Shown: piece by piece, positions 6,003 through 25,840 of the stretch | Position numbering within the stretch: the first letter of the stretch is position 1 | Layout: each line of letters opens with the position of its first letter | Source: Thelephora terrestris | Taxonomy: Eukaryota > Basidiomycota > Agaricomycetes > Thelephorales > Thelephoraceae | Assembly: GCA_015956445.1 (NCBI GenBank) | Contig: WIUZ02000025.1 | Span: forward strand, 291,770 to 355,769 | Direction of reading: 5' to 3' | Length of the DNA: 64,000 nucleotides | Made by a program: the position numbers and the translations under genes | The notes under the pieces: model-generated | Database searches by the model: none | What the model saw: only the letters and a program-made list of their open reading frames with translations | Told to the model about the DNA's origin: nothing

Positions 6003-6666
6003 GCAGCGGACACGTCAGAGGATTTTGAAGCCAGAGCATCTTGAGGTGAGTTGTAACAGCATCGCAATTGATGCGCCTGCCAGAACACCCACACATTTTG
6101 TCAGTTTCTGAAAGCTTCCATCTCCCGCAACCACTCGCTATTCCTCGGAGAATTGAAGTCTCAGCTCCGCAGGCAATATGGTGTCAGCGCTTCTACGTCC
6201 ACTATCTTTCGTGCCCTCAAAGAGGCTGGATATACAAGGAAGAAGGTGAACTCCTGTTCATAGTATGCTTTGTATTTTGAACTAATACCCCGCAGATTGA
6301 CCGCAGGGCAATCGAGATGGACGAAGACGATCGCGCCACATATATCTACCTCATATGTTCCAGGTATCGCCCTGAACAATTGGTATTTGTCGATGAGAGT
6401 TCTTGTGACCGCCGAATCGCTCGGGGGTATGGTCGTGCCATCAAGGGTCAGCGGGTCTTTAGGAAAGCTTTATTTGTCCGCAGTAAAAGGTTTTTTTAAT
6501 TTACCCAATTTGAACACGATCACCGCTACTCACACTGTTGTAGATTTTCAGTCCTCCCAGCTATCTCTCTCGATGGAATCCTCACCGTGAATGTCGTTGA
6601 AGGATCATATGACTCGGATTCATTTGCGAGGTTCATCGACAGCCTCTGTCAGGGTTGTGGGCCTGC

Positions 6667-7290
6667 TTACTGTTTAGGGGACGCTAGAGGATTGGTGGGC
6701 GGGTAAGGTGTGTCGGGACGAACGTTGAAAGGAGTTCCTGGGGTAGAGATGAGAGGAGGAGGAATATCAAGCGAGAGTGGAGACTCGGATTGATAGGGGT
6801 GGAAGGGTGAGTGGTAGTCTTGGCAGAATTGTCTCAGTTGTTGAATAAAGGGGTCGAAGTCGTGGTCGCTGAGGCGTTCGAAACTTACGAGGTATTCTAG
6901 AACAGAGTAAGGTAGTTCAGTTGGGATTTCCCACCACAAGACAATAATAGCAGGGGAGTGGGTATGAACGTTGGTGGTGAGATGAATACGAGGATTTGGG
7001 AAGTAAAAGGCGGGGCTTATACTGAAATAAACAGTGGCTAAAACGCTGCCGGTGACGTCGGAATTCCAAAGGAATTGGTGGTCCGCTCCTAATAAGAAAG
7101 GGGGAGTAGTGACTCCGGAATCAAGCGCAGCAAAGGGGCGATAGTAAGGGAAGTGGGTGAGTAAACCGGTGGTTCGGTTTACTTGAAGGCTTCTGATGAG
7201 TTTATACTCCCAGACAGACCTTCTGGCGTCGGGGATGACTGGACGTTGGATGGGACTAGTAGAGGGGAAGGGGTTAGGGGCTCTGAACAT
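6667..7290 (-). CDS. Hypothetical protein of the LTR-like element, ORF A copy 1
   Basis: A 207-residue open frame from the ATG at 7290 to a stop about 20 bases inside the element's left end. The protein is proline-rich at both ends and has a central segment with several aromatic and hydrophobic stretches (SVLATVYFSISPAFYFP, IIVLWWEIPTELPYSVLEYL). I recognise no family. A TATA-like box lies about 150 bases upstream. The same ORF occurs in the second copy (11267-11817) but is broken there, so copy 1 is the better version. Confidence 0.5.
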   Translation of the reverse strand: MFRAPNPFPSTSPIQRPVIPDARRSVWEYKLIRSLQVNRTTGLLTHFPYYRPFAALDSGVTTPPFLLGADHQFLWNSDVTGSVLATVYFSISPAFYFPNPRIHLTTNVHTHSPAIIVLWWEIPTELPYSVLEYLVSFERLSDHDFDPFIQQLRQFCQDYHSPFHPYQSESPLSLDIPPPLISTPGTPFNVRPDTPYPPTNPLASPKQ

Positions 7291-7610
7291 ACACTGGCAG
7301 GAGAATTCCTGCTAAGATGAGTCAGAAATAGTAAGGCGTGAAGACAATTCTTCAGCTTACTTTGTTTATTCAAGTTGTGGGTAGAGGAGTACAGAAGAGA
7401 TTGAGAATGGGGAAAAGAAAGGAGCGAACGCTCTTCCTTATATACCCAGTCCTCTACAGGAGTCATTATTCTACAACAAACCAAACAGGAATCAACATGG
7501 TCTGTGCGTACTTTAGGGTGGGGTAAATGAGTCAGGGAGGTGGAACTTAGAGCGACCGATACCGGGTACGAGATAGGGGAACAATAGCGAAGGAGTCATT
7601 AGGAACTGGA

Positions 7611-7750
7611 TGGGGATTTCTCTGGTTTCATGGTAGCAATAGAAGCATGACGGGGATTTCCCATGATCGGTGGGGATTTCCCTGGATTAATGGTGGCAAT
7701 AGAAGCGCGGTGGGGATTTCTCATGATCGATGGGGATTTCCCAGGGTTTG
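7611..7750 (+). promoter_or_regulatory. 60-bp tandem with five GGGGATTTC motifs between divergent promoters
   Basis: Five copies of GGGGATTTCyC begin at about 7612, 7652, 7672, 7712 and 7732, in a 60-bp tandem repeat of a little over two units. They lie between the two divergent TATA-like boxes of the element, where an enhancer would be expected. The second copy of the element has the equivalent region with fewer motifs. Regulatory activity is inference. Confidence 0.45.
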
Positions 7751-7953
7751 ATGGGATCTCGTTTGGGGTTAAGGGTTCGTTTTATCCTAATTGGGACTTT
7801 AATGAGTGATGTCCTTCATTGTTTTCCCTTTTTGTCGTCTCATTGAGTCAGCCGTATATAATCCCGGGGGATTACTGGTCCTTTCTCTCCATCGCCTCTT
7901 TTCCTTTCCCACAAACACCATCACCACTCCCCTCTCAAACAAGTTCTACTACT

Positions 7954-8848
7954 ATGTCTGCTTACGCTGCCAACGCTGCTCTGCTCAACGCCGCCGCCAC
8001 CCCCTTCGATCTTTCCCCGTCCTTTGAGACGGACGCTCCCTACGACGTGGAGCAACACTTGTACGATTCCCCCGCCAACATCGCCCATGACAACCAGGTG
8101 GCGGTGGACTTCTTGACCGCTCACAATGCTCCTGCCGAGTTCTGGGAGCAAGCTGGGTATGAAGACCCCAACAGGACTCGAAGGTGGGCTCCTGGAGTCA
8201 CTCCTATGCAGGATGCGATGGAACAGGAGAGGGAGGATAGGATTTTGAAGTTGGAGAGGAGGATGGACGTCATGTATGTGGTTGTTAACAGTCTTAATGA
8301 AGACTTCTCTCACTTCGCCTTGGAACATTGGAAACCTTTCCAGGAGTCTCTCCTCCGATACTTCGGTCACAGGTGTCATGGAGCCTACTGCACCGATGCA
8401 GCTCCCCACTCCCCCGTCATCCCTCCGCCGCCTTCAAGATCAGGGAGTCCCTCTTCCTCAGTCCCCTCCCTGGAGTCCTGTCCCTCGTCGTCAGATGGTG
8501 GAGAGGACCCAGAAGAAAAGTCACAAGAGTCCGATCGCTCGTACTGGACAACGTTGTCGTCCCTCCGACAAGTCACGACAGGTTCGGATGAAGTTGAAGG
8601 TGGAGGTAGCGGGTCTCCAGGACCGTTATGGATTCGCATTGGTGAGCGCGGCGTTGACGGACGTGAAGCGGGAGATGCAGGACAGTCTGTTCCATGATGT
8701 GTTAGGATGTAGGGAGTGTTGGCAGGATCCGATAACGCGGGCATACTCGTATTGCCCTCAGAGCGTACATAATCCTCACCACTTTGCTCATCGTTGTCCG
8801 TTTGCTCAGGACTGCTCTTGTGACGTGGACCCTTTTGTTCTTGTTTAG
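7954..8848 (+). CDS. Hypothetical protein of the LTR-like element, ORF B copy 1 (two overlapping frames)
   Basis: The ATG at 7954 opens a frame running to 8697: an Ala-rich start, a helical E/R-rich middle (EQEREDRILKLERRMDVM) and a Ser/Pro/acidic tail. A second overlapping frame runs to 8848 and ends in a Cys/His-rich segment (GCRECW, then CPQSVHNPHHFAHRCPFAQDC) that could bind zinc. Both frames are kept in the inverted copy at 9810-10704. This suggests an unrecognised intron, a programmed shift, or an old frameshift before the copies separated. A TATA-like box sits about 100 bases upstream. No known family recognised. Confidence 0.5.
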
Positions 8849-9809
8849 CAATGTCATGTCTAGTGGTCGTTCTTGTACTTTTATTTCTTCGAATAAGACC
8901 AATGTCTTGAATTATCTGCGTGATCTTGGATAATATGTCACGTGTTCGTGACAGCCTCCTCTATCACATGAACCCATATCCGGGGCCAAACTCTGTCATC
9001 ATCATGGATAACTGTAGAATCCACAAGTCAGACCTGGTCCGCGAGATTATCGAGGGACGGTAAGTGCATTTTTTGATGCCGCATGTGTATCATTTTGACT
9101 GCACCAGAGGGATGCGATGCGAGTTTTTGCCCGCTTATTCTCCAGATTTCAATCCTATTGAACTTGCTTTTTCCAAGTTCAAAATGTATATCAAAGGAAA
9201 GGAGGCTGAATTCCATGCACTAGATCAAGACAATGAGTTGGAAGTCCACTTATTCTTGATTAGGGCCATATATTCAGTAACGCCAGAGGATGCTCGTGCA
9301 TATTTTAGACACTGCGGTTATCTCTAGTCAAACTCTAATGTAATGCTGTGCTGTCAAGTCAAATTTGCCGAGTGGCAACCGCGTATATGGGAGGTCTGCC
9401 TTTCGAGATTTCTTTCGCTAACCACCACATGGCGGGGTCCAAATCCACCAACCGCACTGCCGCTGCAACTGCTGCTCGCCGCAAACCAAAAAACATCTCA
9501 GGCATTGAGAATGTGACAGAAACTGAGGCTCCTCCAAAGAAGCCACGGCCGAAGCCCACGCGGAAACGACCTCCGCAAAATACGAGCTCGGCAGTAGACG
9601 CGAATGCGGACCTTGACCCAGGCCAGATACAAGTGATACCCCGCAAACCAAGAGTCCCAAATGCGGACAACTATGATGACGGCGATGGCAGGAGTGTTAG
9701 AAGTGACTGTCACGAACGCGTGAGATAGTGGCTAAAATCGCACAAATAATTCAAGACATTGGTCTTATTCGTAGTAATAATACAAAGGTAACTAGCAAAT
9801 ATTACAAAA

Positions 9810-10704
9810 CTAAACAAGAACAAAGGGGTCTACATCACAAGCACAGTCCTGAGCAAAGGGGCAACGATGCGCAAAATGATGAGGGTTGTGTACGCTTTGA
9901 GGACAATAAGCATACACCCGAGTCACCGGGTCTTGCCAACATTTCCTACATCCCAACACATCATGAAATAGGCTATCATGCATCTCCCGCTTCACGTCCA
10001 TCAGCGCCGCGCTCACTAATGCGAACCCATAACGGTCCTGGAGACCCGCTACCTCTACCTTCAACTTCATCCGAACCTGCCGTGACTTGTCGGAGGGATG
10101 ACAACGTTGTCCAGTACGAGTCATCGGACTCTTGTGACTTTTCTTCTGGGTCCTCTCCACCATCTGATGCCTCGGAACAGGACTCCAAGGAGGGGATTGA
10201 GGAAGAGGAACTCCCTGATCGTGAAGGTGGCGGAGGGATGATGGGGGAGTGAGGAGCTGCATCGGTGCAGTAGGCTCCGTGGCATCTGTGACCGAAGTAC
10301 TTGAGGAAAGACTCCTGGAAGGGTTTCCAATGTTCCAAAGCAAAGTGAGAGAAGTCTTCATTGAGACTGTTGACGACCACATACATGACGACCATCCTCC
10401 GCTCCAACTTCAAGATCCTATCTTCCCTCTCTTGCTCCATCGCGGCTTGCATGGGAGTGACTCCAGGAGCCCACCTTCGAGTACTATTGGGATCTTCGTA
10501 CCCAGCTTGCTCCCAGAACTCGGCGGGAGCATTGTGAGCCATCAGAAAATCCACGGCCACCTGGTTGTCATGGGCGATGTTGGAGGGAGTATCGTATAAA
10601 TGTTGCTCCACATTGAAAGGAGCATCCGTCTCGAAGGACGGGGAGAAGTCGAAGGGGGTGGCCGCAGCGTTGAGCAAGGCGTTGTTGGTAGCCTAAGCAG
10701 ACAT
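9810..10704 (-). pseudogene. ORF B of the LTR-like element, copy 2
   Basis: Counterpart of 7954-8848. The ATG at 10704 is followed three codons later by TAG where copy 1 has TAC, so the start is broken. Downstream, the two overlapping frames (to 9976 and to 9810) and the Cys/His-rich end are well preserved. Confidence 0.6.
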
Positions 10705-11266
10705 TGAGTAGAAGAGCGATTTAAGAGAGGAAGTTTTGGTGGTGTTGGTGGGAAAGGAAAAGAGACGATGAGAGGAAAGATCAATAAACCCACTGGATTA
10801 TATACGACCAAGTCAATAGGAAACCGAAAGGGGAGAACAACGAACCATCACTCATTAAAGGTCCCAATTAGGGTAAACGAACCCTCAGCCCCAATCGCGA
10901 CCCCATCAAAACCGGAGAAATCCCCACCGATCATGAGAAATCCCCTAATACCTCCATCAGCTCACACTCCTATTGTTCCCACATTAGTAATTACCATCGA
11001 TAGTTCTAAGTTCCCTCCTTCTGACTCATTCGACCTACCCTAAAGTACGCACAGACCATGTGGATCCCTGTTTGGTTCGCTGTAATAATAGTGACTCCTG
11101 TAGAGGATTGGGTATATAAGGAAGAGCATTCGCTCCTTCTTTTCCCCATTCTCAATCTCTTCTGTACTCCTCTAACCACAACCTCAATAAACAAAGTAAG
11201 CTGAGGAATCTTCCTCACGTGTTACTTCTTTCTAACTCATTCAAGCAGGAATCCTCCTGCTAGTGT

Positions 11267-11817
11267 ATGTTTGGAGCCCCTGATCCCTTCCCCTCTACCA
11301 GCCCCATCCAACGCCCGATTATACTGGACGCCAGGAGATCTATCTGGGAGTATAAACTCATCAGAAGTCTTTACTAACTCATTTTCCTTATTATCGCCCC
11401 TTTGCGGCCCTTGACTCCAGAGTCACCACCCCCCCGTTCCTCTTAGGAGCTGATCATCAGTTCCTTTGGGACTCCGACCTTACTGGAAGCGTTCTAGCAA
11501 CCGTTTACTTCAGTATAAGTCCTGCCTTCTATTTTCCCAATCCACGTATCCACCTCACTACTAACGTTCACACCCACTCCCCTGCTATCATTGTTTTGTG
11601 GTGGGAAATTCCAACTGAATTACCTTACTCGGTTATAGAATACCTTGTAAGCTTCGAACGCCTCAGCGATCAAAACTTCGATCCCTTCATCCAACAGCTC
11701 AGCCAGTTTTGCCAGGATTACCATTCGCCCGTCTACCCTTATCAAACCGAGTCACCACTCGCTCTCGACACCCCTCCTCCTCTCACTCCCACACCCGGAA
11801 CCCCCTTCAAAGTTTGA
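11267..11817 (+). pseudogene. ORF A of the LTR-like element, copy 2
   Basis: Counterpart of 6667-7290. A deletion of about 22 bases near 11365 shifts the frame. Later parts match copy 1 again (WWEIPTELPYSVIEYL near 11600), and a stop at 11817 shortens the tail. A TATA-like TATATAAGG lies near 11112. Confidence 0.65.
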
Positions 11818-14090
11818 CCCGATACTCCTCACCCATCCGCTAATCCTCTAGCGCCCCTTGAACAGTAAGCAGGCCCACAACCCTGACAGTGACCCTGGTG
11901 GGGATGCTGGTGGTGACCTCAGCGACGGAGGAGTTGGCAGTGGCGTTGGAAACAGAGGCCTTGGTGATGGCATTGGCAACGGAGGTGTCAGTGGTGGCCT
12001 CAGCGACGGAGATGTCGATGTTGACCTCGGTGAAGGATGTGATTACAGTGAGGGTGAAAATCACCTCGGTCAGTATCGACGCACACCTGTCCTAGATGAG
12101 TATGGGAGTGAGCCTGAGCAATCCTTACAACACGATGGTGAGTCGATGATACATTCATTGACAAAATGTTTGCTCAGCATTGTTGAGACAACACAGGAGA
12201 TGAAGACAGAAATTCAATTGAATCCGATGCACACCTTACCGTCCGATTTGACATACCGGTCGACGGCGTCAACCATGCCCTTGAGTTTCCTACCAACATC
12301 TCATGGGATGAGTTCCTGTTCGAGATTGGAGGAACACTGCATCTTTGCTCCCACGAATTTCAATTGTCGTATAAACTGACGAGCCAACCAAAGGATGAAT
12401 TAGCAAGAGCGCTTGTAAAGAATCAAGACCTCGTGCATCTCATGCAAGAGTGTAAACCATTTCTCACCGGAGAGAAGAAGTGTCAAGGGAACAAGGAATT
12501 TCAGGTCCAACTTATAACCCGATCAACGACAAATGGGGGTAAGGAGGGTACCAAACCAATATTCCATAAAGGGAAGAAGATGAGATGGTATCCGTCTATA
12601 AGGAATACATGTTAATGTTTAAAACAGGGGAGGAAGGAAAAGAAAAAACCTTCCGAATCAGAAGACACCGGCGAAATGAAGGAAATAGTTGGAGTTGGGA
12701 GACGTTCTGCCATGCTCCACCAATCAAACAGATGTGACAAACACCCATCTGAAAAAACGGGTTGCTGGCTGCTGGATGGAGGAAAAAAACACTTACATCT
12801 TGCTCCCCGAGAATTTTCAATGTGGGCGACGATGATTATGAGTCAAAGTGCATGTTCCCATTGGTTCCTCACTGACTGTATTTGGAATAGCATTTTGGAA
12901 TGGCTACAGAAGATGTATGCCCCGCTTCAGTCATTGAGGCGGCACAAATGGCAGAGGAAGAGGAAATGGCAAAGGTGAAAGAGAGGAAGAAAAAGCGCCG
13001 CCATTCGTGCTCACCACCACCTCGCAAGTCGATCACTCCAGATAGAGCCACCACATCTGCTCCTTGTGCACCCTCACCTGCCCCAGTCTCACAACAGGGC
13101 CCACCGTGTTTCCAGGCCGTTAACCACCAACCAACTGCCACAGCCTTCCAAAATTCAGGTGATCCAGCCATGTTCCAAAACCCCGGGTTCCAAAACCTTC
13201 CCTCCTCAACTGGTAACCTCAATGGGTTGGGCATGTTCCCATATCAACTGGGCTACAACTTCCCAGGTTTCGGTTTCGGGACTCCTCAACCACCAATCCC
13301 TTTTCCGATACCTCCTTCGGTCCCACCTTCCTACCCCGGTTTTCTGACAGGAGGGTTCAACCTGCACCTCTCCCAACCTTCTTCCATTTACCCAACTCAG
13401 CCATACCCATCCTCCTCAGAGTTTCCTAATTGGCAGCCTCCTCAGTATCATTATTCCAAGGCGCCCTGGCAACAGCCCAGGAGCTCGTACCAACCAACCC
13501 GGCCCGACGTTGAGCGCCCGTACCGCCCATATTATAACTGTTCGAATCTTGGCCCAACGTTCTATCCTGACGACCCTATAGACTTCCCAAGGTTGACACA
13601 ATGGCTCGAGGACGTTGACCAGGATCCCGAATGCGGCTGGTGGCAAGATGACTTTTCTCAGTTCACTGCCCGGTTCGAGATGGAGCGTTTCACAACATTA
13701 CTTGACCTGGAAGGACTCACCGCAGACTATTTGGGAGCAATAACTGGTATCTCATACGACTCTGCAAGGCGACTCATCCACTTTGCAACAGAGGACATCC
13801 AAGTGATCCGGGACACTGCGCCTCGCGCCTCGAAGCGAGCTCGATATAACTAACATAAAAGCCTATAACTACACTCAGAATTAGCACTACCCTGTCACCA
13901 CCATGAGGCCCATTGATATACATTTTACTTTGGACTGATTATGACTGCAGATTGCGACCAAACACGGACGTCGCAAGACTCGACTCAACTCGATCACACA
14001 CGGAACCAACGACATGTCAATGCACCTGTTCAGCAAAATCTCATCGTGAATGCAAAATAGGGACCCACCAAACATTGCCACAGAAGGAAC

Positions 14091-22542: not shown

Positions 22543-25500
22543 TGTCAGGGCCACTCTACCCCAACAACTACCAGTGCACTGAGCCGACTCCGCAGAGTAC
22601 TCACTAGTCCAACTAGCTTGTGAGAGAACGATCACGTCTCTATTCTTCCGGTAGGTTGTCCGAGGTCACTACAAGTCAGGTCGAAATCCTAAAGAGAAAC
22701 CCAACCTAAACCATACTTCGTTCGGTTTAACAAGCAAGGGTTTATCTCTACAGCAGGATTGATGACTCCACCAGGTGATCGACTGGACGCTCGAGGTGTT
22801 CTAATGTGAACGCTGGGGTTCTATAGTTACGAGGCGCAGTTGACGCGCAGAGCAGGAGGGAGAGCAGATGGGGGATGTCTTGGATCAAACAAGAAACTCT
22901 GACTTGTCCTTAACTGCAACTGGGCTGAGAAGGGCAGAGGATTTCCTGAGGTAACAAAACTAAGGGACTACGATACAGCCACAGTTGCTACTTATACTAA
23001 AGGAGTGGCCATGACGTCAATACCCTAATATACCCTTATCAAGTCCGAACAAAGGGAGATAAGGAGTGTGTGAACGCTAAGTAAGGGAAGCGAGCAAAGA
23101 TGACGCGTGGGAGAATAAAGGACAAAGGGCCTTACTAGCGTGTGAAGGATTGCATAAAAGATAATGAATGTCCGCATGAAACATAGGGGTAAAGATAACA
23201 CTAGTCTTAAAAGAAAAAGGGGCATGGGGTCATGAAAGTTCGTACCTGGGGATCACACCCAAGGGCTAGGTGAGAATCTTCTTGGATGCTTCCTTTGGAG
23301 AGGCCAAAGATAGAGACCATACAGCATCCCTTGTTGTCTGTAGGCGGTAACAGCATCACGGACTAGTGGCAACCTCAACGTACGTCCGAACATGAGGAGC
23401 ACAGGCCTAGACTCATGGGACATGAGGGATTACAGATTCGCCGGTGTTTCACGCTAACGGCTACTTCCACATTCGCTTGGCTAACCAAAAGAAGTCAAAG
23501 GCACTCCTTCCAATTAACGGCGATTCCTTCCTCCGGTTAGGAGACTGTGATGTGACTGTCCACGTGTGTGATCAGGGTCCAGGGTTGATCGTAATCATAA
23601 AGTCATGAGGGGTCGTAAAAGGGGTTCGTGATGTCATAAAGGGGTCATCAGGGTCTTGAGACCTATTTTTAGTGCGCGTGCGTTCTAGGCATTCCGGAAC
23701 GAAGTTCTTCCAAGGCCGTCCCACGGGCCGAGGTGTCAGCTTGATGTAGTAAGCCAACGATTATGGTACAGTGGCGGAAGTTGATGTGACCCGGACCAAT
23801 GAGGTTCGTCGAGGTAGGTCACGTGAAGGATCACCGATCTAGGCTATAAGAAGGACGTCTTCTTGGAGCCATCCTTGATCAGCAACACCAGAAACTTCCC
23901 CATCATTTTACCAAAATGTCTTTCCCCAACAACCATACCTACAAAGTCGCCAATGGCATCTCCACCATCTCCCGCATCGACCGCCGTGCCGCCAACCGTA
24001 AGACCTATGCCAGTGAGGCGGGGACTCCCTATACCACTGATGACCAGGTATGGGGGAGGCCTAGAGCTTCGTGTGCTTGCACTAACGCCTTCCTCTAGGT
24101 AGAGGTCCGTTCTTTAGGCATTGATGTCAAACTAACGGCTTCTAGATCTTGGAGGTCGTCCAGAAGGTGGATGCCGAACGTCTCAGGGAGACGATTCCTC
24201 ATTTGATGGGGTTGACCTGGGACGATGAGCTCTGGGTCCGGTCCATGATCGCCGAGAAGGTGATCTTCCAGATGAGGGGTAGGTTCGGGGAGCTGGAGCA
24301 TCCAATCAAGAAGGAGCTCTGGTACACCCTGCAGAGGGGGATCTACGATCAGGACCTATTGGAGCACGGGGCAACCGTTCCTCGGGCCGTCCGTCATGCT
24401 ACTGCCGCCACCTCATTATTGTGGTCGCTCGTTCGGGAGGGGGAGAGCCGGGTAGGTTCTCCGTTTGAATATTTGAGTATGACTCTCAACTAATCAAACT
24501 GCCTAGGTCGAACGTTTGGAGCGCGAGGTGAAGGAGGCGAAGGCAGACGTCCTTCGTCTGTCGGCGGAGGGTCTTCTGATGAAGGAGACTCTGGCCGCCT
24601 TCCAGCAGGGGACGAATGAGGCGTTGGAGGCGATGGTCGCTAACCATCAAGAGTTGGTTGCCGGGTTGAAGGTCAGGGACAACAACATTAAGGGGGCGCT
24701 GGCCAGGAGGGATGAAAAGGTTCTTTCAGCCTTTGCAAGTTTATGCAATGACTGAGAGACTTCTTCTAGACCGAACAGCTTGAAGACATGGTGGCCGTGT
24801 TGACCGCGCAGGTGGCGTCCTTACAGGACAAGACCTGCAACTGCAAAGAGGGTCCGGTGTTGGTTGGTGAGGGGACAGCCGATGTTCCGTTCGAGCTGGA
24901 GTACGCCAACGAGGTGGTACTCCCATCGCCTAACCCGTCGTCCTACGCGACACCTCCGATTGAGAACGCGATTCCCGTCCCAACTCCGGCTCCGGCTTCC
25001 ACGTTGGCCAAGTCCGACAAGGAAAACTGTCAGCGCTGCCCATTGCAGCCGATCAGTCAGCTGGTCAAGATCGAGGATGAGGTCATGGAAGTTGACCGGG
25101 CCGAAGATGTTCCGAGGGCCATTGAGGTACGTCCGGTGACAACAGGGCAGCGTTGTAAACGCTCTCGACGCCGTGTTGCTCATCGCATGGCTCCATCGGC
25201 TAATCCTTATCCGCGTCCAGTTGAGTCGGATGGTGACCAGTCTGGTCGAGATGAGGGACGATCCTTCCGCTACCGGGTCAACCGTCCCTACCGACAGGTC
25301 GAGTCGGAGATCCAGCTTCGCCACCAGCTTCGACTCGCAAGACAGGATCCCACCCAGGGGTCTGACGAGGGAGACGGAGGGTCTCTCATCGACTACGTCG
25401 ATAGTGCTGCCGAGCAGTCACCCGGTAATGGAGATGTGGGACCAGGTGTTCAGCAGTTCGGTGACATCTGGGAGGCTGATCGGTCCGCTCAAAGGCATCT

Positions 25501-25840
25501 CTTCCTATCGGCTTGAACTAGTTGTTCAGCTGAGTGCCGAAGATGGTGACGCCATGTTCGGGGAGGTCCTTGCGAGGAGGGGCCAGCACTACGATCTCTG
25601 GGATGGACAGTTGATGACCTTTAGGCCTGCCGTAGATAGAGTTGACTTTTGAGGGACTTGGATAGCACCGTATATAGCCATGTTGTTACGATTCGCTGGG
25701 AATGGTACGCGCGTTTGTGTGTTTTGAATGATTGGTGTGAAGGATAAGGAGTGTGAAGCATTCAAAACATAAGGAGGGGTAAGAAGAATTCGAAGAAAGA
25801 GTGTGTTATAAAAAGTTTTAAAAATACCATGTTCCTGACA
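22543..25840 (-). mobile_element. LTR-like element carrying a spliced gene (3298 bp), TSD ACATG
   Basis: It starts TGTCAGGGCC and ends GTTCCTGACA, with the perfect 5-bp duplication ACATG (22538-22542 and 25841-25845) inside the MITE. The ends resemble those of the 6647-8953 family (TGTCAGGG...GTTCGTGACA). Read on the minus strand it has a TATA-like box near 23000 (TAGTATAAGTAG) and a roughly 450-base leader to the terminus, as in U3-R-U5. The spliced gene at 23916-25516 then lies antisense in the U3. There is no reverse transcriptase, integrase or second LTR. Confidence 0.78.
23916..25516 (+). CDS. Spliced coiled-coil/disordered protein inside an LTR-like element
   Basis: Exons about 23916-24047, 24146-24451, 24507-24719 and 24770-25516, with GT-AG introns that keep the frame. 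The N-terminus is short and basic. Exon 2 gives a compact helical domain (WDDELWVRSMIAEKVIFQMRGR). Exon 3 and the start of exon 4 form a coiled coil (VERLEREVKEAKADVLRLSA). The rest is acidic and proline-rich, then Arg-rich, and looks disordered. A TATA-like GCTATAAGAAGG is near 23840. The protein is intact and not recognised. Its location within TG...CA ends and a 5-bp duplication makes it an element gene and not a host gene. Boundaries of intron 1 are least certain. Confidence 0.6.

Follow-up and report, generated by a model that had tools for sequence, protein, structure and literature searches.

Does a long terminal repeat (LTR) of a fungal element carry protein-coding genes of its own? 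This question is raised by two related insertions, here called copies of the focal unit, in a 64,000-nucleotide (nt) stretch of Thelephora terrestris DNA (contig WIUZ02000025.1; C18:291770-355769), which as a whole is referred to as the window. The genome that we searched with them was represented by 40.6 Mb in 60 contigs. In our reading the focal unit works like a gene-bearing Gypsy-type LTR and nearly all its copies are solo LTRs, with a probability of about 0.6; membership of the unit in an LTR retrotransposon is unproven. This reading is built on the ends and mobility of the unit, on the selection acting on its divergent genes, on its LTR-like anatomy, and on a second family of the same genome in which a full-length Gypsy element has an antisense gene inside its LTRs.

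The focal unit, its copies and its genes

For both insertions the coordinates, the TG...CA ends and the perfect 5-bp target duplications (GCCTC and GTGAC) reported in the initial annotation were right. The features that delimit them are the following.

6642-6646: target duplication GCCTC, 5 bp, left of copy 1
6647-8953, plus strand: focal unit copy 1, 2307 bp, with TGTCAGGG...CGTGACA ends and GCCTC duplication
8936-8953, plus strand: terminal palindrome TGTCACG(N4)CGTGACA, present beside another repeat family too
8954-8958: target duplication GCCTC, 5 bp, right of copy 1
9708-11888, minus strand: focal unit copy 2, 2181 bp, with GTGAC duplication (9703-9707 and 11889-11893) and a broken sense open reading frame (ORF)

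The two copies are mutually inverted and 79% alike across the whole unit (73-90% in the longer ungapped pieces). A DDE_3 match (Pfam, E 1.1e-6) lies in the right flank of copy 1, and the insertion site of this copy looks like a remnant of a DDE transposase gene. Other copies share the same ends, as the initial annotation had supposed, and form one family: genome-wide there were 318 left ends (24-mer, at most 3 mismatches; none with a backward-pattern control) and 296 right ends (20-mer, at most 3 mismatches; one with the control), the latter count including at least two matches from another repeat family.

We considered as complete copies 42 units selected by their ends, 24 of them taken from the window and the DNA match list and the remaining 18 from the list of best ORFs, after five loci (L001, L003, L006, L007 and L008) had been dropped as duplicates; 19 lone focal ends were recorded separately, outside this set. 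The complete copies were 2.2-2.4 kb in length. TG...CA ends were present in 24 of 24 printed copies, with TGTCAGGG or a slightly altered form of it on the left and a GTGACA-type end on the right. Perfect 5-bp duplications flanked 38 of the 42 complete copies, against a chance expectation of about 0.001 per copy; the four imperfect cases were represented by a single mismatch, an end hit by another unit, a duplication of 4 bp, and a left end apparently lacking two bases.

Two copies on contig C7 were 99.96% identical and had different duplications (AATGC and GTAAC, respectively), hence the family must have moved very recently. An insertion of one unit within another showed the same 5-bp overlap. 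At L016 3878-8432 (C60), a unit was inserted in the terminal palindrome of another with duplication GTCAC, which gives a tail-to-tail pair. At L032 (C13:553100-558450) two identical inverted units with a shared GCTAC duplication lay about 535 bp apart, which may reflect a genuine inverted duplication or an artefact of assembly.

Each copy had been described in the initial annotation as containing two divergent coding regions, conserved between copies. The coding regions of copy 1 are the following.

6667-7290, minus strand: 'sense' ORF of 207 amino acids (aa), with its stop about 20 bp from the unit end
7954-8697, plus strand: frame 1 of the divergent 'antisense' gene, 247 aa in this copy and 242-245 aa as a rule, its tail acidic and serine-rich
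8398-8848, plus strand: frame 2 (+1) of the divergent gene, a basic, Cys/His-rich C-terminal part

Their conservation was borne out, as purifying selection is strong and the ORFs are far from neutral. Precisely, the ratio of nonsynonymous to synonymous substitution rates (dN/dS), computed on 24 focal copies, was 0.068 for the 207-aa ORF (mean dS 0.90), 0.070 for frame 1 before the overlap and 0.128 for frame 2; since copy pairs are non-independent and dS is near saturation, these ratios are to be taken as a strong sign and not as estimates. On the opposite strand of the 207-aa ORF the ratio was 1.23. The picture of two intact genes per copy had to be changed in two respects: copy 2 is not intact, its 207-aa ORF being broken and its divergent gene having an early in-frame stop, and the divergent gene consists of two overlapping frames.

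The 207-aa ORF was intact in 38 of 42 copies, a share that is biased upward for the 18 copies from the ORF list (17 of 18 intact, against 21 of the 24 others). At the observed divergence, neutral evolution would leave 17%-41% of these ORFs open, indels ignored. Among 409 candidate genomic matches to the ORF, 144 of the best-scoring 150 were stop-free. So many intact and constrained ORFs with low dN/dS could also be expected of a dispersed host gene family with flanks that are merely transposon-like; we regard this explanation as hardly credible, because it is contradicted by the exact common ends, the 5-bp duplications and the nested insertions.

In the divergent gene, 17 of 24 copies had no interruption of frame 1 between its start and the usual stop near 8680, and 7 of 24 had a stop in frame 2 downstream of the switch. 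The variable codon position moves to the next phase at about 8398-8432, without an intervening unconstrained or gapped stretch. An intron as the source of the frame change was rejected, as no GT-AG pair conserved at the switch was found. Candidate ATGs near the switch were not conserved either. The third-position variation of frame 2 was 0.192 in the overlap and 0.358 after the frame-1 stop in the 24 copies, and 0.214 and 0.375, respectively, with 42 copies (permutation p 0.00005 in both cases). This damping of the silent sites of frame 2 within the overlap suggests that both frames are used, and translated, there. As the cause of the frame change we prefer +1 frameshifting; separate starts are possible.

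Database searches bear on a further explanation. Precisely, the focal ORFs had no Pfam match above the cut-off, and the 207-aa protein, which may resemble DUF6699, gave an empty Pfam scan. A sequence search of PDB with the left protein returned no significant match (one at E 0.48), and the predicted folds of the left protein and of the frame-2 part were weak (mean predicted local distance difference test scores of 49 and 55) and had no significant structural match. An autonomous DNA transposon of unknown superfamily, with one of the three small products as its transposase, would be consistent with the conservation of all three frames, with the short inverted TGTCA/TGACA ends and with the recent movement. 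We find it improbable, as the only Pfam match, itself not transposase-like, was DUF7500 (E 0.23-0.24, below the cut-off), nothing transposase-like was found in PDB by sequence for the left protein or by fold (low-confidence models, frame 1 not modelled), and the end motif is common to a Gypsy LTR of the same genome. Ginger-like DDE transposons have TGTNR ends; in this case too, no Pfam match of the focal ORFs to a DDE integrase-like transposase lay above the cut-off.

LTR-like anatomy and a Gypsy family with gene-bearing LTRs

The region between the two genes of copy 1, together with the leader of the sense gene, contains the following features.

7855-7861, plus strand: TATA box of the divergent gene, TATATAA in 21 of 42 copies and TATTTAA in 20 of 42
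7597-7760: variable region between the genes with GGGGATTTCC repeats, among the least conserved parts of the unit
7437-7444, minus strand: TATATAAG box of the sense gene, invariant among all 42 copies
7365-7370, minus strand: AATAAA, about 70 nt 3' of the TATA box, as in the R (repeated) region of an LTR, in 35 of 42 copies
7355-7360, minus strand: GTAAGC, in 41 of 42 copies, resembling the 5' splice site of a possible 49-nt leader intron
7308-7313, minus strand: 3' splice-site-like AG/CAGG of the possible leader intron, AGCAGG being shown in 40 copies of 42

With the 207-aa gene taken as sense, the focal unit reads 5'-TGTCACG...CCTGACA-3', and its TATA box, AATAAA, splice donor and CCTGACA end make up a predicted LTR-like anatomy. 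The best conserved 40-nt stretch of the unit is the leader adjoining the TATA box, unlike an ordinary untranslated leader. The region between the two genes at 7531-7850, which varies between copies, has TGAGTCA sites beside the GGGGATTTCC repeats.

The terminal palindrome of the focal unit also adjoins another repeat family, which at two loci has a TATATAAA box about 450 nt further on. At L078 and L079 another repeat family adjoins the same palindrome, with ACTTCCCTCT next and a TATATAAAGG box about 450 nt on. A flank shared by C23:2524911 and C59:1481166 was rejected as that of a different family having the same palindrome.

A full-length Ty3/Gypsy chromodomain element was found at C12:3167893-3180557 (loci L055, L053 and L056). 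Its LTRs are 3324 bp in length and 99.97% identical, with ends TGTCAGG...CCTGACA, and the element is flanked by a GATGG duplication. Pfam matches were obtained for gag (just below the cut-off, the zinc knuckle being above it), protease, reverse transcriptase (RT), RNase H, integrase and chromodomain. Tf1-type elements prime by self-priming, and the C12 element resembles them in that its primer site is apparently complementary, from our reading of the sequence, to a segment just downstream of its own TATA box.

The LTR of this element has an antisense coding region. In 19 alignments, obtained after excluding L053, L055 and L056 (the reference) and L008 (a duplicate), its codon phase changes at more than one point, as introns would make it do, and at its end two frames overlap (+1). 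On entry into the overlap the third-position rate of frame A drops from 0.245 to 0.124; for frame B this rate is 0.10 within the overlap and 0.15 beyond it. When eight loci of the C12 type were scanned, two of them partial, frame A reached its stop in five and frame B in four; in L015 (77% identity in this part) and in the partial L090 neither frame did. We counted 411 U3 (unique 3' region) ends of the C12 type genome-wide (at most 3 mismatches) and about 8 RT matches of the C12 score class, a grouping by score, so that about 2% of the family would be full length. In this family there would thus be about 50 solo LTRs for each full-length copy. One such solo LTR lies in the window.

22543-25840, strand not assigned: solo 3.3-kb Gypsy LTR of the C12 family, with ACATG duplication; the pol sense would be minus
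24770-25516, plus strand: frame A of the antisense gene of the solo LTR
25140-25652, plus strand: frame B (+1) of the same gene, overlapping frame A

Judged from these coding patterns, the C12 family of this genome does have a gene inside its LTR, antisense in U3. The idea of genes within LTRs, which the initial annotation had put forward for the focal unit, is therefore shown for a different Gypsy family, and the focal unit itself was never found as an LTR pair. The C12 element is like the focal unit in its CCTGACA end, TG...CA termini, 5-bp duplication, long LTR, antisense U3 gene and +1 overlap. It is unlike the focal unit in being full length with gag-pol, in the size of its LTR, and in that a sense ORF like the 207-aa one was not seen.

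If the focal unit is a gene-bearing Gypsy-type LTR, its U3 would hold the antisense gene of two overlapping frames, R would start at the TATATAAG box and include the AATAAA, and U5 (the unique 5' region) would contain the leader intron as well as the 207-aa gene, the latter stopping some 20 bp short of the terminal CA. A full-length parent would exist or have existed, and a Gypsy-type integrase would have made the insertions. One transcript could serve both as genomic RNA and as messenger RNA for the 207-aa protein, and the antisense gene could give a short product from frame 1 and, via +1 frameshifting, a longer product with the basic Cys/His-rich tail. Every new insertion would need these products, as regulators or accessory proteins, and this need would explain the selection on genes that lie within an LTR.

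Search for paired units and the stand-alone alternative

A number of results weigh against the gene-bearing LTR. The initial annotation had proposed, as a check, to look for full-length elements with the focal unit twice, around gag-pol, and none was found among the 42 complete copies, the unit on C56 and 50 same-strand pairs of neighbouring units. The pair search covered the 245 left ends known of about 318, at a spacing of 3.5-17 kb. Neighbours were on the same strand in 50 cases and on opposite strands in 42, with no clear same-strand excess. An RT match lay between the members in 2 of the 50 same-strand pairs, and neither pair was supported: in the first, the RT lies between C12-type LTR ends and appears to belong to that family, and in the second both members had their own duplications. 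Ten of the 50 pairs include a member that was read and has a duplication of its own; for the remaining 40, except one on C1, lack of RT was the only criterion.

Individual candidates were rejected as well. The members of candidate LTR pairs at C23, C60 and C12 each had their own duplications, one member of the candidate pairs at C59 and C10 (17.5 kb apart) had a perfect duplication of its own, which suffices for rejection, and the C58 pair was rejected as an LTR pair. The C56 unit, which is beside an ORF of 1556 aa, is single and has its own CCTGC duplication. As longer autonomous relatives we considered and rejected five spans of about 5.6 kb, all of which (5/5) contain a nested 3.3-kb Gypsy LTR.

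A common primer site was not found either. The 70 distinct left flanks shared no 10-mer at equal distance from the end (primer sites of transfer RNAs were not part of this search); these 70 are a recount with looser locus ends, the initial 59 flanks having included duplicates. Three self-primer patterns gave six genomic matches and no supported junction, one of the six having been read: this one, at C23:1773763, is not a focal end. The other five lie on C5, C16, C58, C18 and C60. The match at C18:121595 begins with the motif of the focal end, an agreement of about the frequency that chance would give. Those at C16:259845 and C58:1393409 are identical over 40 nt, CCTGACA...GATTGAGAA, and are perhaps LTR-internal junctions of another family.

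Also to be counted on this side is that a conserved intron in the leader would disappear on copying of a spliced RNA. No homology between the LTR genes of the focal and C12 families emerged from profile comparison, and since their proteins show none that is detectable, the likeness of the two is one of architecture. Finally, over the overlap of the divergent gene frame 1 taken alone had a dN/dS of 0.97 (and 0.45 for 29 codons lying just before, at 8374-8460), values that are hard to interpret under overlapping frames and that by themselves show no selection on frame 1. Its use in the overlap is accordingly argued solely from the damped silent sites of frame 2, which another constraint on DNA or RNA could also produce.

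The explanation that we consider the main rival is a stand-alone non-autonomous unit, perhaps derived from an LTR, which is inserted singly by an integrase or transposase supplied in trans and whose own genes promote its spread. It would account for complete copies that are solitary, 38 of 42 having their own perfect duplication, for nearly identical copies with different duplications, for the lack of any supported pair, and for genes under selection despite single copies. A non-autonomous element had been the alternative offered by the initial annotation, and as no focal pair was found we keep it as the less probable alternative. However, no route by which a single LTR unit would be copied is known to us, and the TATA box, AATAAA and U5-like end are LTR anatomy. 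Missing pairs are moreover weak evidence for it, given the proportion of about 50 solo LTRs to one full-length copy in the C12-type family. A bolder version, which we hold doubtful, is that a gene-bearing LTR has itself turned into a mobile element, with a divergent gene pair, one member of which is dual-coded, Gypsy-type ends and an integrase acting in trans, and without paired repeats or an RT of its own.

For the gene-bearing LTR, the absence of focal pairs is not decisive because the C12-type family itself is only about 2% full length. By our estimate both ends are known for about 59% of the elements, so that as many as three full-length focal elements may have escaped the search.

Possible functions, known systems and other observations

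In the frame-2 tail, a basic composition and a conserved Cys/His cluster suggest putative nucleic-acid binding. No relatives were found in viral contigs.

The LTR of mouse mammary tumour virus carries a gene, and antisense genes start in retroviral 3' LTRs. These cases are like the focal unit in having coding sequence in the LTR or antisense transcripts that start there; they are unlike it in that they belong to animal retroviruses and have one gene, not a divergent pair.

Among plant elements, antisense ORFs that may encode DNA-binding proteins are described near the 3' LTR of Retand Gypsy elements (PMC11963269). In that account they are located between pol and the 3' LTR, outside the LTR, unlike the focal genes. 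By analogy with these antisense proteins (PMC11963269), we propose regulatory or accessory roles, for the element, of the focal gene products. Rice Retrosat2 has LTRs of more than 3 kb, in this respect like the focal unit, and an ORF0 that is listed beside the pol ORF1 and that, in the part of the source available, is not described as within the LTR (PMC3485330).

Among open-access titles and the beginnings of abstracts, a coverage that takes in few subscription journals, we found no description of protein genes inside fungal LTRs. Protein genes in LTRs are rarely described; in this fungus, divergent or antisense genes are carried by two families that are LTRs or LTR-like. Both families show a similar two-frame overlap without detectable homology of the genes, and selection on the focal genes is strong in a family that numbers about 300 copies. 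If these genes serve the element, in regulation, packaging, targeting or suppression of silencing, they would provide a set of testable accessory proteins. The genes may also explain why solo LTRs get annotated as numerous host genes of unknown function.

Neighbouring genes carry DUF6535, F-box and NTPase-TPR domains. Elsewhere in the window, at 224-1819, there is a repeat region that is open in three minus-strand frames and has a recurring 'MGHGLYNTI'-like peptide.

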